A DNA stretch of 64,000 nt from an uncultured Lacinutrix sp. (GTDB lineage: Bacteria > Bacteroidota > Bacteroidia > Flavobacteriales > Flavobacteriaceae): assembly GCF_947500605.1 (NCBI RefSeq), contig NZ_CANMSJ010000003.1, positions 1 through 64,000 of the forward strand, read 5' to 3'. A program made the position numbers and the translations under genes. Position 1 is the first letter of the stretch; the number at the start of each line of letters is the position of its first letter. The notes below the pieces were generated by a model. It did no database searches and was not told the origin of the DNA. It saw nothing but the letters and a program-made list of their open reading frames with translations. Below, one piece after another: positions 1-4,881 of the stretch.

Positions 1-29
1 AAGGCTAAGTTTGTGTTTTGTGTTTTCAT
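1..29 (-). CDS. GG-leader RiPP precursor, 5' fragment (runs off the window)
   Basis: Reading leftward from an ATG at 29, the visible codons give MKTQNTNLA, identical to the beginning of the next precursor (58-198). The gene continues beyond the left edge, so its core is not visible. It belongs to the tandem array of GG-leader peptides that fills 1-2.0 kb. The assignment rests only on the identical N-terminus and on the position, one repeat step downstream of its neighbour. Confidence 0.6.
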
Positions 30-57
30 AATTTGTGTTTTTAGTGGTTATTAAATT

Positions 58-198
58 TTATTTTCTTGTAATTAATAGGCTAATAATAATCCCTGTACAT
101 ACTGGAGAAGTTCCTCCGTTCACATCTTGTAATTGGTTATCATTTAACTCTGTTACTGAACTCTTGTTGAAGGCTAAGTTTGTGTTTTGTGTTTTCAT
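58..198 (-). CDS. GG-leader RiPP (class I lanthipeptide-like) precursor, 46 aa
   Basis: A 46-residue peptide with the array's shared leader: MKTQNTNLAFNKSS, then TELN and VNGG. The predicted core after Gly-Gly is TSPVCTGIIISLLITRK, with one Cys and several Ser/Thr. The leader type (a K-rich start, an 'ELN' block and a terminal GG) is that of the Bacteroidota GG-leader natural-product precursors, many of them annotated as class I lanthipeptides. No ring chemistry can be read from sequence. It is too short for most gene callers, and its homology to eleven other copies is the main evidence that it is real. Confidence 0.75.
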   Translation of the reverse strand: MKTQNTNLAFNKSSVTELNDNQLQDVNGGTSPVCTGIIISLLITRK

Positions 199-223
199 AA
201 TTTGTGTTTTTAGTGGTTATTAT

Positions 224-367
224 TTATTGAGTAATTGTTTTAATTTTTTCTTTTATAGGGTCTATTATTACTGTCCAGCTTCCACCATTAACAGTCGCCA
301 TAGAATCCATATTTAATTCTATTAAAGAATTCTTATTAAGCTTAAGCTTGTTATCTTGTGTTTTCAT
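224..367 (-). CDS. GG-leader RiPP precursor, 47 aa (Trp core, no Cys)
   Basis: The leader MKTQDNKLKLNKNS is followed by IELN and VNGG. The core is SWTVIIDPIKEKIKTITQ, with no cysteine, so a lanthionine could not form within this core. The core start GGSWTV is shared with the precursor at 1182-1340, so the two form a Trp-type subgroup. The leader is more divergent (NMDSMAT before VNGG) than in the Cys-type members. It lies 25 bp upstream of the next precursor on the same strand, consistent with co-transcription. Confidence 0.72.
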   Translation of the reverse strand: MKTQDNKLKLNKNSLIELNMDSMATVNGGSWTVIIDPIKEKIKTITQ

Positions 368-376
368 AATTGTTTA

Positions 377-532
377 TTAATTTATAACTGTTACAGTTAT
401 TGATTTTTCTGAAATTGTCATACAGTTTGAACAAACTATTCCTGTTCCTCCGTTTACAGAGTGAATTTCTGCATCTGTTAATTCTGTTATCGCGTTCTTT
501 TTAAATACTAATTTTGTGTTTTGTGTTTTCAT
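377..532 (-). CDS. GG-leader RiPP precursor, 51 aa, CSNCMT core
   Basis: The leader MKTQNTKLVFKKNAITEL ends in VNGG. The core begins TGIVCSNCMTISEKS and ends in a Thr/Val-rich tail. The block CSNCMT is shared with the three following copies (596, 806 and 1016), which marks these four as recent tandem duplicates. Cys-x-x-Cys beside Ser/Thr would suit lanthionine or disulfide formation; this is inference. This copy has the longest tail of the four. Confidence 0.78.
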   Translation of the reverse strand: MKTQNTKLVFKKNAITELTDAEIHSVNGGTGIVCSNCMTISEKSITVTVIN

Positions 533-595
533 AATATTAATTTGATTTTTATTGTTGTTAACGGATATTATATCGATTTCTATAAAAAATGCATT

Positions 596-739
596 TTATT
601 TAATAGTAATTGGTATTGTTATCGTCATACAATTAGAGCATACAAAACCTGTTCCTCCGTTTACAGCGTATGTTTCTTGATCTGTTAATTCTGTTATTAC
701 GTTCTTTTTAAATACTAGTTTTGTGTTTTGAGTTTTCAT
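596..739 (-). CDS. GG-leader RiPP precursor, 47 aa, CSNCMT core
   Basis: The leader MKTQNTKLVFKKNVITEL ends in VNGG, and the core is TGFVCSNCMTITIPITIK. It differs from the 806-949 copy at only a few positions, mostly in the core (Gly/Phe-Val against Ser/Phe-Leu). Start-to-start distances are 207 bp to the downstream copy and 210 bp to the upstream one. The spacers between copies are also similar to each other, so the duplicated unit was gene plus spacer. Confidence 0.8.
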   Translation of the reverse strand: MKTQNTKLVFKKNVITELTDQETYAVNGGTGFVCSNCMTITIPITIK

Positions 740-805
740 AATTTTAATTTAGTTTTTATTGTTGTTGACGAATATTTTATTAATAGAAATTAATAAAATT
801 TAAAT

Positions 806-949
806 TTATTTAATAGTAATTGGTACTGTTACCGTCATACAATTAGAGCATAAAAAACTTGTTCCTCCGTTTACAGCGTATATTTCTAGATCTGTTAATT
901 CTGTTATTACATTCTTTTTAAATACTAATTTTGTGTTTTGAGTTTTCAT
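806..949 (-). CDS. GG-leader RiPP precursor, 47 aa, CSNCMT core
   Basis: The leader MKTQNTKLVFKKNVITEL ends in VNGG, and the core is TSFLCSNCMTVTVPITIK. It is a near-identical tandem copy of its neighbours at 596 and 1016. It ends with the same ITIK-stop and is followed by an AT-rich spacer that resembles the other spacers in the array. Confidence 0.8.
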   Translation of the reverse strand: MKTQNTKLVFKKNVITELTDLEIYAVNGGTSFLCSNCMTVTVPITIK

Positions 950-1015
950 AATTTTAATTTGGTTTTTATTGTTGTTAATGGATATTTTATCGATTTCTAT
1001 TAATAATATTTAAAT

Positions 1016-1165
1016 TTATTTAATAGTGATTGGTATTGTTACTGTCATACAATTAGAGCATAAAAAACTTGTTCCTCCTTTTACAGCGTATGTTTCTTGA
1101 TCTGTTAATTCTATTATTGATTTTTTTCTAAAATCTAATTTTAATTTGTTGTTCTGGGTTTTCAT
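1016..1165 (-). CDS. GG-leader RiPP precursor, 49 aa, CSNCMT core
   Basis: The leader MKTQNNKLKLDFRKKSIIEL ends in VKGG rather than VNGG. The core TSFLCSNCMTVTIPITIK is almost identical to that of the 806 copy. The leader's first half differs from the sister copies while its second half and core match, which could be recombination between array members or simple drift. Confidence 0.78.
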   Translation of the reverse strand: MKTQNNKLKLDFRKKSIIELTDQETYAVKGGTSFLCSNCMTVTIPITIK

Positions 1166-1181
1166 AATTTTAATTTGGTTT

Positions 1182-1340
1182 TTAAAGTGGTCCATTATCT
1201 ATCCAAGTTCCATAGGTTGTTGCCCTTATTATACTTTCTACTACAGTCCATGATCCACCATTAATATTTTCAATTTGTTTGTCGTTAAGCTCGACAATTA
1301 CATCCTTTTTAAAGTTGAGTTTTTTCTTTTCTGTTTTCAT
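1182..1340 (-). CDS. GG-leader RiPP precursor, 52 aa (Trp core, no Cys)
   Basis: The leader MKTEKKKLNFKKDVIVELN ends in INGG. The core is SWTVVESIIRATTYGTWI followed by DNGPL, with no cysteine. It shares the GGSWTV junction with the 224-367 precursor. It lies 16 bp upstream of the 1016-1165 precursor, which makes co-transcription likely. Confidence 0.75.
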   Translation of the reverse strand: MKTEKKKLNFKKDVIVELNDKQIENINGGSWTVVESIIRATTYGTWIDNGPL

Positions 1341-1355
1341 AATTTCTATATTTTT

Positions 1356-1535
1356 CTAAAATGAAACATTATCGTTTTGAGATGGATTATCTGCAACTAT
1401 AGATATTTTTATAGTTAATGTTGGTCCTGATGAATGGCTCCATTGGCATCCTCCCTTTACAGCTATAGATTCAGAACTATTTAACTCTGTAATTGAATTT
1501 TTATCGAACTGTAATTTTGTACTTTGCGTTTTCAT
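1356..1535 (-). CDS. GG-leader RiPP precursor, 59 aa
   Basis: The leader MKTQSTKLQFDKNSITELN ends in VKGG. The core starts CQWSHSSGPTLTIKISI and continues with a polar Asn/Ser/Gln-rich tail. A single Cys directly follows Gly-Gly, which distinguishes this core from the CSNC and Trp types. It is 15 bp upstream of the next precursor. Assignment is by leader homology and position in the array. Confidence 0.75.
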   Translation of the reverse strand: MKTQSTKLQFDKNSITELNSSESIAVKGGCQWSHSSGPTLTIKISIVADNPSQNDNVSF

Positions 1536-1574
1536 AATTTGTAAATATTATTTTAATTATACTTTCAATTTATT

Positions 1575-1757
1575 TTATCTAGACTGTATATCTTCTCCTT
1601 GACTACCATTTGCAATTATAGAGACTGTAATTATAGATGTAGGAAGCATTGGTGAAATAGAAGAGATTGTTCCTCCATTAATTTGGCTTAATTGGTCAGT
1701 ATTTAATTCGCTTATTGAACTTTTCTTAAAAACTAATTTTGAGTTTTGTGTTTTCAT
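1575..1757 (-). CDS. GG-leader RiPP precursor, 60 aa (Ser/Thr/Ile-rich core)
   Basis: The leader MKTQNSKLVFKKSSISELN ends in INGG. The core begins TISSISPMLPTSIITVSI and ends in a polar NGSQGEDIQSR tail. It has many Ser/Thr but no Cys, so dehydration without thioether closure, or no modification, would be expected if it is processed. It resembles the 1769-1966 precursor in leader and in total length. Confidence 0.8.
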   Translation of the reverse strand: MKTQNSKLVFKKSSISELNTDQLSQINGGTISSISPMLPTSIITVSIIANGSQGEDIQSR

Positions 1758-1768
1758 AATTTTAATAT

Positions 1769-1966
1769 TTATTGTTTTCTCATTTGTGCTATTATATCTC
1801 CTCCTGCTCCATTACTACTATTTATACATAATGAGCAACTTAAAGAGCCTCCAGTTTGATTAATAATTGTGGTTCCTGTACCGCCTTTAATTTGATTTAA
1901 CTGGCTCTGGTTTAATTCTGTTATAGAACTTTTGCTGAATTTTAATTTTGCTTTTTGTGTTTTCAT
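1769..1966 (-). CDS. GG-leader RiPP precursor, 65 aa, CSLC core
   Basis: The leader MKTQKAKLKFSKSSITELN ends in IKGG. The core contains TGGSLSCSLCINSSNGAGG. The start at 1966 was chosen because it restores the MKTQ leader seen in every sister gene. A longer in-frame start at 2026 would add 20 residues that overlap the upstream small ORF (1978-2103) in another frame. This is the first GG-leader gene of the array in transcription order, 11 bp after that ORF. Confidence 0.8.
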   Translation of the reverse strand: MKTQKAKLKFSKSSITELNQSQLNQIKGGTGTTIINQTGGSLSCSLCINSSNGAGGDIIAQMRKQ

Positions 1967-1977
1967 AATGTTTTGTT

Positions 1978-2103
1978 TTAAATTTTTTTTATAAAAATTT
2001 TTAACTTTATTAATAGTTTTTTCCATAAAGATTTCTCTTCTTGGATTTCTACTATTGTTCTCTTTTTTAAATGCTCTTTAAAAGAGTTTTTAATCTCTTC
2101 CAT
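1978..2103 (-). CDS. Small ORF, 41 aa, cationic amphipathic C-terminus
   Basis: Begins MEEIKNSFKEHLKKRTIVEI and ends WKKLLIKLKIFIKKI. The last 15 residues alternate Lys with bulky hydrophobics and would form a strongly cationic amphipathic helix, like many antimicrobial or membrane-active peptides. There is no GG leader. It sits between the 40-aa ORF (17 bp upstream) and the first GG precursor (11 bp downstream), as expected for an operon member. I recognise no family. The AT-rich context makes Lys/Ile-rich chance ORFs possible, so confidence is moderate. Confidence 0.45.
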   Translation of the reverse strand: MEEIKNSFKEHLKKRTIVEIQEEKSLWKKLLIKLKIFIKKI

Positions 2104-2120
2104 AAATTTAAATTGTACTT

Positions 2121-2243
2121 TTAATCTAAAATTATGGCATCGCCTAATGAAAGACAAACGGTTGTAAACTCTTCTTGAAGCTCGTTAGAGATAAAGCCTA
2201 AGGCTTCATTTTCCTGATTTTGGTAATGTGGTGATGTTTTCAT
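2121..2243 (-). CDS. Small ORF, 40 aa, unknown; promoter-proximal gene of the peptide array
   Basis: Starts MKTSPHYQNQENEALGFISN and ends TTVCLSLGDAIILD. It has no GG motif, no membrane segment and one Cys near the end. It is the first ORF after a roughly 450-bp non-coding stretch and is tightly followed by the 41-aa ORF and the precursor array, all in the same direction. The acidic, non-cationic composition makes an antimicrobial role unlikely; a small accessory or recognition protein, or an unrelated precursor type, is possible. No family was recognised. Confidence 0.5.
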   Translation of the reverse strand: MKTSPHYQNQENEALGFISNELQEEFTTVCLSLGDAIILD

Positions 2244-2697: not shown

Positions 2698-4518
2698 TTA
2701 ACTGTTTTTAATTTCTTCAATCTTTTTTATATAAACAGTAGGAGAAATACCTGTAGCAACTTTAAAATAACGTGAAAAAGCATCTGCATTTTTATAGCCC
2801 ATTTCTTCTGCAATTCCTTTTACAGAATAAGAGCGCAAACGCTTGTTATTTTTTAGTTCTAATATAGCATGATTGATTCTAAGCTCATTAATGTAGGTAC
2901 TAAAAGATTTTTCTAAATGAGTATTTACTATTTTAGAGAGGTATGAGGTGTTTGTTTTAAGTTTTTTAGCCATATTATGCATAGTACAGTCTTGGCGTAA
3001 ATAATATTGCTTATCCTCTAATTTTTGAATTTTTATTAATATTTCTTCTACTTTTTTATCATCTATAACATAACCAGAATCTGTTTCTTCTTCTTCTTCT
3101 TCTTCTTCTTCTGTAGTAGTGTTAGTTTTTTTTGTTTTGGAAAGCTCTTTTTCTAAATCCTTTTCACCTACAATATCCTGTGTTCCTTTAAGCTCATTAA
3201 CTGTTTCTTGTTTTTCAATAGCAATAGGATCTAAAGCAGTGGTTTTCTTTTTATCTTCATAAGCTTTAATTTTAATCATAAGTTCGTTAAAACGTTTCTG
3301 ATTTTGAAAAGCTTTTATTTTGAAAAAGAAAAACAAAGCAACTATTAAAACTATTAGTGAAATACTAATAAATGTCCACACCCAATTATTTTTTTTATAT
3401 TTTTCTTTTTCTAAAATCTCTTGATCTAACTCTAATTCAAAATCACTTTGTAATGAAGCTACTTTTTTATTTAAATTAAAATTATATAAAGTCTCTAAAG
3501 TAGATAGTTTGTTCTCTGAAACTTTTTGTTTTTCCTCTAAGTATTTATAATAAAACACCTCTGCCATCTTACTATCCTTAAGAGCCTTATAGGTGTCTGA
3601 AATCAGTTTGTAGTATTTTATTTTTTGTAATGGTGTTTTATCTATCGTACTTTCTATTATTATATTTAAATCTGTTATAGCAGCAGTAAAATTAGAGCTC
3701 AAAAAATTAATTTCTGCATTTCTATATTTAATTTCATTAATAAATTCCTGATTTTTTAGTTTTATTGCACAAGTTAGAGCTTCTGCGCTTGCTTTTTTTG
3801 CAGAATTGAGCTTGTTGTTAAACACATCTATTTTAGATTTTAAAAAATTCATGTGATAAATAAACTCACAATCATTTTTAGCTTTTGCTTCAGCTAAACC
3901 ATCTATTATTAACTGCTCTGCTTCCGTTAATTTTTCTGCCTTTATATAAGCCTCAATTAATGTTTTTCGAATAAACCTTAAATTAAAATCGCCAAGTAAA
4001 ATTTTATTGTTATAATCTGTTTTAAGCTCTTCTAAAGCGTTATTAGATTTACTTATTTTTAATTTTAATGATCTTATATATGCTTCAACAGTTTCTATAG
4101 ACTTAGAGTCTTTATTTTTTTCTGCTAAGTCTAAAGTTTGTTGATATAATCTCAAACTCTCTCTAAAACGTTCTTTATTCTCTAAAATCCTAGCTATACT
4201 ATGCTTTGTTTGAATAATATCTTTAGGTTTCTCTGCTATACTTAAATTTTTATAGTGATAAAAAAGCGTACTATCCGTTTGGTTCATTATTTCATGAGCA
4301 GCAGCTATGGACGCATTAGTAATTATAATATTTTCTATATTGTTTTCAGATTCTAAAATATTAAGGTATTTATGAAGATAGTTTAAAGCCTTGTCTGGAT
4401 TACTATAAATATTATTTCTAATTGAATCTTCTAATATTTTTTTATCCTGTTGTGAGAATGATTGAATTGAAAATAGAGATACAATAAATAGTATTATAAG
4501 TAATTTTAATGCTCGCAT
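2698..4518 (-). CDS. TPR-containing membrane-anchored AraC-family regulator
   Basis: A 606-residue protein with an N-terminal signal/anchor (residues 1-22, ending SIQSFSQ). TPR-like helical repeats cover roughly 40-350, one membrane helix lies near 378-400 (WVWTFISISLIVLIV), a charged linker follows, and a C-terminal AraC/XylS-type helix-turn-helix spans about 505-602 (VKGIAEEMGYKNADAFSRYF is the second helix-turn-helix). This layout is common in flavobacterial sensors that sense outside and bind DNA inside. The linker carries an unbroken Glu run from nine GAA codons (3085-3111). It lies upstream of the precursor array on the same strand, so it is a natural candidate regulator of it; this is inference from position. 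Confidence 0.85.
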   Translation of the reverse strand: MRALKLLIILFIVSLFSIQSFSQQDKKILEDSIRNNIYSNPDKALNYLHKYLNILESENNIENIIITNASIAAAHEIMNQTDSTLFYHYKNLSIAEKPKDIIQTKHSIARILENKERFRESLRLYQQTLDLAEKNKDSKSIETVEAYIRSLKLKISKSNNALEELKTDYNNKILLGDFNLRFIRKTLIEAYIKAEKLTEAEQLIIDGLAEAKAKNDCEFIYHMNFLKSKIDVFNNKLNSAKKASAEALTCAIKLKNQEFINEIKYRNAEINFLSSNFTAAITDLNIIIESTIDKTPLQKIKYYKLISDTYKALKDSKMAEVFYYKYLEEKQKVSENKLSTLETLYNFNLNKKVASLQSDFELELDQEILEKEKYKKNNWVWTFISISLIVLIVALFFFFKIKAFQNQKRFNELMIKIKAYEDKKKTTALDPIAIEKQETVNELKGTQDIVGEKDLEKELSKTKKTNTTTEEEEEEEEETDSGYVIDDKKVEEILIKIQKLEDKQYYLRQDCTMHNMAKKLKTNTSYLSKIVNTHLEKSFSTYINELRINHAILELKNNKRLRSYSVKGIAEEMGYKNADAFSRYFKVATGISPTVYIKKIEEIKNS

Positions 4519-4719: not shown

Positions 4720-4881
4720 ATGAAAACTCAAGCAAAAAAACTAAACTTTAAAAAAAGTAACATTACAGAATTAAACAGTAATATGCTAATGACAATTAAT
4801 GGAGGTAGCAATGTTGAAGCTGCAGGAGAAATTACAACAGTTTCTAGATACACAAGTCATTTGTGTGATAAAATTGGTTAA
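4720..4881 (+). CDS. Orphan GG-leader RiPP precursor, 53 aa
   Basis: MKTQAKKLNFKKSNITELN followed by INGG, then the core SNVEAAGEITTVSRYTSHLC with a DKIG tail. The leader matches the array at 1-2 kb closely. The gene is on the opposite strand, divergent from the TPR-AraC regulator, and has its own rho-independent terminator immediately after. The core has a single Cys near its C-terminus, preceded by several Thr/Ser. It may be a displaced array member made by the same unseen machinery. Confidence 0.78.
   Translation: MKTQAKKLNFKKSNITELNSNMLMTINGGSNVEAAGEITTVSRYTSHLCDKIG

Follow-up and report, generated by a model that had tools for sequence, protein, structure and literature searches.

How could a single set of enzymes that includes no recognizable lanthipeptide cyclase mature a whole library of precursor peptides with diverse cores? 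The question is raised by a locus at the start of a 64,000-nucleotide stretch (the window; positions 1 to 64,000 of contig NZ_CANMSJ010000003.1, called C3 here, assembly GCF_947500605.1) from an uncultured Lacinutrix sp. of the Flavobacteriaceae. We propose that it is a combinatorial locus for ribosomally synthesized and post-translationally modified peptides (RiPPs), in which the dehydratase LanB dehydrates the cores, those bearing Cys mostly cyclize by themselves, a LanJ_A-type reductase (LanJ) reduces the remaining dehydro residues, and a C39 exporter cuts and exports the products. The probability of this reading is put at roughly one half. The genes, their linkage, the lack of a detectable LanC and a recurrent Ser/Thr motif before Cys can be read directly from the DNA.

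The precursors form a leftward tandem array (58-1966, minus strand) of ten complete open reading frames (ORFs), each with an MKT...EL...GG leader. From left to right, with protein-scan scores against the leader family NF038153 (cut-off 22 bits), their cores are TSPVCTGIIISLLITRK (58-198, 33.5 bits), SWTVIIDPIKEKIKTITQ (224-367, 21.8 bits, slightly below the cut-off), TGIVCSNCMTISEKSITVTVIN (377-532, 29 bits), TGFVCSNCMTITIPITIK (596-739, 27.8 bits), TSFLCSNCMTVTVPITIK (806-949, 24.1 bits), TSFLCSNCMTVTIPITIK (1016-1165, 22.9 bits in the genome search), SWTVVESIIRATTYGTWIDNGPL (1182-1340, 30.5 bits), CQWSHSSGPTLTIKISIVADNPSQNDNVSF (1356-1535, 25.6 bits), TISSISPMLPTSIITVSIIANGSQGEDIQSR (1575-1757, 33 bits) and TGTTIINQTGGSLSCSLCINSSNGAGGDIIAQMRKQ (1769-1966, 28.3 bits). 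The core at 58-198 carries the motif [S/T][S/T]xxC, those at 806-949 and 1016-1165 carry it as TSFLC, and those at 224-367, 1182-1340 and 1575-1757 have no Cys. One more precursor, starting MKTQNTNLA..., is truncated by the contig start (1-29, minus strand). The first-pass annotation had claimed at least eleven tandem GG-leader precursors over 1-2243; the number holds with ten complete and one truncated, while the array itself stops at 1966. The 40-codon ORF that heads it (2121-2243, minus strand) has no GG leader and matches no family above its cut-off in the family profile scan; its body is also found in Lacinutrix venerupis with an altered start.

Two leader models had been suggested for these peptides, and only one of them recognizes the array. 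Nine of the ten complete precursors reach the cut-off of NF038153, a known class I leader family, in the genome search, with 224-367 falling short at 21.0 bits. In the protein scan eight of ten lie above it, the query for 1016-1165 having been one codon short (1016-1162, 20 bits). Among 14 control genomes, three gave an NF038153 match at E<=1 and none a match above the cut-off. The cut-off of TIGR04149, the model for radical S-adenosylmethionine (rSAM)-modified GG peptides, was reached by none of the ten (best 23.3 versus 25 bits). Over 14 distinct leader/core pairs from the window genome, leaders share a mean identity of 60% and cores 31%, compared with 22% for shuffled cores.

Position 1 of the window is also the first base of contig C3, and the enzymes predicted to lie leftward of the array are found on another contig, C2, whose final 71 bases are identical to the first 71 of the window. 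The end of C2 holds five further precursors, arranged as a 169-base tandem repeat, and the truncated precursor continues there. On the strand opposite to its precursors follow, in order, an HlyD adaptor, an ATP-binding cassette (ABC) exporter with a C39 peptidase domain, one LanB and a medium-chain dehydrogenase-type protein of the LanJ_A type. In L. venerupis DSM 28755 the enzyme genes, 13 array precursors, a regulator and a divergent precursor all lie on a single contig, and the C2-C3 join is therefore very probably the natural gene order. The 169-base unit occurs six times in L. venerupis and, in the window genome, five times on C2 and once in the window; these counts fit a direct join, though copies may have collapsed. 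Five relatives, namely L. venerupis, a Bizionia metagenome-assembled genome (MAG), a Lacinutrix MAG, a Flavobacteriaceae MAG and L. neustonica, share the order HlyD, C39, LanB, LanJ (broken in L. neustonica), and together with the window genome they make up the clade discussed below. A contig end likewise interrupts the array of the Flavobacteriaceae MAG, the same ORF appearing at both ends (L126 14597-14734 and L127 136-273).

The case for assigning these genes is strong. LanB (1039 residues) matches both PF04738 (E 3e-129) and PF14028 (E 8e-66), so that the glutamylation and elimination domains of a class I dehydratase stand in one protein. It is the sole PF04738 match in the window genome at E<=0.001, and a LanB is present in all six clade genomes. 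Its N-terminal half has 56 columns that 20 or more of 21 other LanBs share, and in 51 of these none of the five clade LanBs departs from the consensus; for the C-terminal half, 13 or more of 14 others share 45 columns, of which the window genome keeps 42. LanB and LanJ both have an unbroken reading frame in the window genome. Raw counts of codon differences from L. venerupis are 115 synonymous and 26 nonsynonymous for LanB, 167 and 18 for the C39 exporter, and 23 and 12 for LanJ.

A skeptic might hold that the array encodes unmodified secreted bacteriocins, or that the cluster is decaying, with LanB and LanJ inactive or at work elsewhere. Between L. venerupis and the window genome the core codons changed 8 times synonymously and 9 times nonsynonymously out of 148 (six pairs), which gives no sign of constraint, and in L. 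neustonica the two enzyme genes are broken into several frames. The intact frames in the window genome, the mostly synonymous changes in LanB and exporter, the gene order kept in the relatives and a Cys motif common to cores across species all speak against such an account and leave it very improbable. In the complete chromosome of L. neustonica the fragments of LanB and LanJ lie at L052 2274-11094 and may reflect either decay or sequencing error.

The enzyme that was not found is the cyclase. A search with PF05147, the LanC/LanM cyclase domain, drew a blank in the window genome (99.98% complete) at E<=1 and in each of the five relatives (G538-G542) at E<=0.1, so that the domain is found in zero of six clade genomes. 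This also argues against cyclase domains of the LanM type, and a LanM with a cyclase domain as in prochlorosin-type class II systems is not indicated in the window genome at E<=1. The earlier description of the array as class I lanthipeptide-like is thus supported by its leader and dehydratase and fails for the full enzyme set, LanC not being found by PF05147 and a LanJ_A-type reductase following LanB.

That reductase shows a full-length match to the reductase of plasmid pMRC01 (32% identity over 369 columns by BLASTP; tblastn 2e-41), which we take to be the ltnJ product of lacticin 3147. Among plasmid proteins, the best matches to most of its length carry a dehydrogenase annotation, and in two of the loci opened a reductase homologue adjoins LanM-type genes (two of them on pMRC01, the other locus being on a Pseudanabaena plasmid). 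An AlphaFold2 model (predicted local distance difference test score 90.3) has a medium-chain dehydrogenase fold and matches alcohol dehydrogenases, quinone oxidoreductases and enoyl-type reductases. LanJ of the window genome is 97% identical to that of L. venerupis. In a tree of 50 rows, from which L052 with its broken LanJ (also absent from the alignment), L086, L094, L096 and L097-L104 were left out, the five clade proteins form one fully supported group beside a Chitinophaga homologue. This group is nested in a 33-row part (support 97/86) with other Bacteroidota, Cyanobacteria, Chloroflexota and other rows, and the pMRC01 protein and Bacillota rows fall outside it. Full-length homology to a LanM-linked reductase and grouping with RiPP-linked homologues support a placement of the protein in LanJ_A. 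Such genes are rare: at E<=1e-25, two of the 395 genomes in the class have one, the window genome included. Daptide-type chemistry was considered for the reductase and rejected, the Actinomyces homologue sitting on a long branch and no aminotransferase being seen among the operon genes.

Neighbors of LanJ were read at 49 of 57 loci, L097-L104 being left out. LanJ and LanB occur together with LanC in Parapedobacter, Sunxiuqinia and Gynurincola. In Flavobacterium, Chryseobacterium and Saprospiraceae the stretch read has the pair but no LanC; both Chryseobacterium genomes have a LanC elsewhere. The Chryseobacterium precursors beside LanJ (L073 9709-9912, L074 9594-9797) contain an alternating Ser-X stretch, SLSVSVSLSISYSKSKSK in L073, which would yield alternating D/L residues if every Ser were reduced. 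For the clade itself, a gramicidin-like L/D pattern of alternating Ser/Thr was rejected, lag-2 pairs numbering 98 versus 124.2 expected (z -3.2). In Saprospiraceae (L053 7990-11050, L055 2611-5897) LanJ is paired with a LanM-like dehydratase half that is short (630 and 708 amino acids), and PF05147 has no match at E<=0.1 in a genome with this type of locus; the pairing is possibly a second dehydrate-and-reduce layout without a cyclase. At L111 4830-14802, in a family genome, a LanC-less split LanB is accompanied by a SPASM match, a RimK-like match below cut-off, an AraC-type regulator and a subtilase.

If no cyclase is encoded, the cores themselves may hold the answer. A leader model built from seven seeds (from the window, L. 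venerupis L048 and L. neustonica L052) recovered 124 clade precursors with a GG or GA cut, giving 108 unique cores and 76 non-redundant ones. By genome these are 16 in the window genome, 14 in L. venerupis, 33 in the Bizionia MAG, 12 in the Lacinutrix MAG, 11 in the Flavobacteriaceae MAG and 38 in L. neustonica. The core counts exclude all ORFs below 8 bits and six clade ORFs that match the leader but lack a GG/GA cut (L124, L125, L126 and L127 with one each, L128 with two). Every one of the 76 cores contains Ser or Thr, which also opens 63 of them, and Cys occurs in 47.

The position of Ser and Thr relative to Cys is far from random. At -4 they occupy 45 of 61 sites versus 18.1 expected (z 7.6 against shuffles) and at -3 37 of 61 versus 14.9 (z 6.8); -1 is hydrophobic in 36 of 62 versus 19.8 expected. 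Of 41 non-redundant Cys contexts, 37 extend to -4, and 21 have Ser/Thr at both positions. The resulting motif, [S/T][S/T]xxC, precedes 35 of 61 testable Cys in the clade; for a comparison set with LanC the count is 4 of 49 (p 3e-8). Shuffling with Cys fixed gives 4.3 expected and a maximum of 15 in 5000, and fixing the first two core residues as well gives 13.9 and a maximum of 20. The doublets are SS in 14 cases, TS in 9, TT in 7 and ST in 5. The comparison set comprises 20 precursors, 14 of them non-redundant, read at NF038153 matches; it leaves out several such matches (G102, G566, G557 and further ones in G077, G562, G563 and G565). A stricter version (17 precursors, 11 non-redundant) omits L130 and L132 of G138, for which proximity to LanC is not established, and L069, which has a LanC fragment only. 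With it, the motif per Cys at three redundancy cuts stands at 35/61, 32/52 and 28/46 versus 3/38, 3/35 and 3/33 (p 4.5e-7 to 2.1e-6). A motif of this kind in a locus where no LanC can be found is what would be expected if ring closure had moved into the substrate.

The remaining 29 of 76 cores are free of Cys, compared with 0 of 14 in the LanC set (Fisher p 0.0038); the contrast is weaker in the stricter set (0/11; p 0.013 to 0.047 over three redundancy cuts). A purely ring-free reading, first drawn from the absence of LanC, was abandoned on the evidence of the Cys motif. In a related account no thioether forms at all, the products being linear peptides with dehydro or D-amino acids, and the Cys motif serves for binding or disulfide pairing. 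The many Cys-free cores, the Ser/Thr present in all 76, the presence of LanJ and the lack of a findable LanC would suit it. Disulfides would not be expected to place Ser/Thr at -4 and -3 so far above the shuffles, and many cores carry a single Cys, and we regard this account as unlikely.

The proposed mechanism would run as follows. One LanB would act on some 16 precursors with a common leader, dehydrating Ser and Thr in their cores. In most cases Cys comes after a pair of neighboring Ser/Thr, so that dehydration could be followed by closure of a small (methyl)lanthionine ring with no cyclase. LanJ would reduce the other dehydro residues, including those of Cys-free cores, to D-Ala or D-2-aminobutyrate (D-Abu), and the C39 ABC exporter would cut after GG and export the product with HlyD. 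We infer the action of LanB on these precursors, the ring closure, the reduction to D-residues and the export, as well as any antagonistic role of the peptides. A chemical precedent is offered by rosin, in which a ring of the form dehydroalanine-dehydrobutyrine-Xxx-Xxx-Cys (Dha-Dhb-Xxx-Xxx-Cys) is reported to close enzyme-free, stereoselectively and under control of the motif (PMC12291118). Its Lan6-10 ring has the same arrangement of an adjacent dehydro pair, two residues and Cys as the motif seen here. The systems differ in that rosin is dehydrated by the RosK-RosY pair rather than by a LanB, whereas the motif here recurs throughout a library.

Several points weigh against substrate-driven closure. 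The rosin dehydratase complex is reported to accelerate closure moderately (PMC12291118). The same motif is called common in other lanthipeptides, one class II LanM overrides its preference, and closure from Dhb is described as much slower than from Dha when no enzyme takes part (PMC13343206). The motifs in the window genome are all Thr-Ser, the Ser at -3 being the would-be faster acceptor. The contrast in motif is smaller when counted per core (30/47 versus 4/14, p 0.031), and 17 of the 47 Cys-bearing non-redundant cores do not have it. Absence of LanC is itself common: it scores above cut-off in 6 of 15 LanB-bearing genomes of the family (the own genome included among the 15), the other 9 having no match above it. 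The LanB-LanJ loci of Flavobacterium (three genomes) and Chryseobacterium (two) have no LanC in the stretch read and no doublet, one precursor having been read in each. Three of the five LanC-negative relatives are MAGs or uncultured assemblies, whose completeness is not established. Finally, LanJ has Phe or Leu in place of Lys67 in all five clade members, a residue found in 43 of 44 other rows, and Leu in place of Cys62, which is Cys in 39 of 44.

The replaced residues, together with ring-like spacing before Cys where LanC is not found, could also mean that the rings are formed by an unrecognized cyclase or with help from LanB or LanJ, the clade LanJ perhaps having been repurposed. Against this, the block from HlyD to the array holds no additional gene of at least 100 codons, and the matches of six flanking genes, four on the C2 side and two in the window, are to unrelated Pfam families. 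Clade LanJ, except for L050, which is cut by a contig end, keeps the positions invariant in all 44 other rows as well as the medium-chain dehydrogenase fold, and we know of no cyclase with that fold. An enzymatic route to the rings is accordingly judged improbable, and self-closure of the Cys cores, with LanJ as a reductase, is preferred.

The layout recalls the prochlorosins, in which one enzyme, ProcM, acts on precursors with a common leader and very diverse cores; ProcM is a LanM with a LanC-like domain. The library is alike, whereas here a LanB dehydratase is combined with a reductase and no cyclase domain is found. The promiscuity of ProcM is named in PMC10783134. The Bacteroidota class I lanthipeptides (NF038153), for which PMC7268733 names the pinensins as the isolated case, share the leader family, GG cut site, LanB and C39 exporter. 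They differ from the present locus, where LanC is not found, a LanJ_A-type gene follows LanB, precursors are many and more than a third of cores are Cys-free. The clade LanJ resembles the LanJ_A enzymes LtnJ of lacticin 3147 and RodJA (PMC11519912) in its full-length homology to the pMRC01 protein, its medium-chain dehydrogenase fold and its RiPP locus; those two serve class II clusters with a LanM, and the clade proteins have lost Lys67 and Cys62. The rodencin authors state that class II, with a single class V case, is the main source of known D-residues made by LanJ (PMC11519912). In PMC7268733, homologues of LanJ_A had already been noted in the neighborhood of class I clusters, with no product. 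The survey in that paper started from LanC domains and discarded Cys-free precursors, and it would therefore have missed this locus. In the literature searched, mostly by titles, no published description of a LanC-free LanB-LanJ locus was recognized.

Beyond the array lies an AraC-type helix-turn-helix regulator (2698-4518, minus strand; PF12833 E 2.4e-16) with a hydrophobic, probably membrane segment at residues 380-401. It has weak tetratricopeptide repeat (TPR) matches, which are below the Pfam cut-off in the window and above it in the homologue of the Bizionia MAG (L049). Homologues occupy the same position in L. venerupis (L048, 94% identity), L. neustonica (L052, 48%) and the Bizionia MAG (42%), and the regulator possibly controls the array. 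On its other side is a divergent precursor (4720-4881, plus strand) with the core SNVEAAGEITTVSRYTSHLCDKIG and the motif TSHLC, which scores 15.7 bits against NF038153 (below cut-off) and 41.5 bits with the leader model, itself partly built from window leaders. It has a counterpart in L. venerupis. Speculatively, its peptide could be a signal for the regulator that lies between it and the array.

The library also appears to turn over. Precursor 1769-1966 has no counterpart in L. venerupis, where the upstream sequence joins the next leader directly at the common start ATGAAAACACAAAA. This looks like the loss of a cassette by recombination between leader starts, a gain in the window lineage being the alternative. 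Taken with the tandem 169-base copies, such a loss suggests how the library changes.

With some hesitation, and at odds slightly short of even, the locus may represent a LanC-free branch of class I in which one pair of enzymes, LanB and LanJ, acts on a rapidly changing library, closure is encoded in the substrate (Dhx-Dhx-Xxx-Xxx-Cys, Dhx being a dehydro residue) and Cys-free members become linear D-amino-acid peptides. If so, the lanthipeptide cyclase would be dispensable across a whole library when the substrate bears a self-closing motif, and LanB and LanJ would constitute a two-enzyme tool that naturally accepts many cores.

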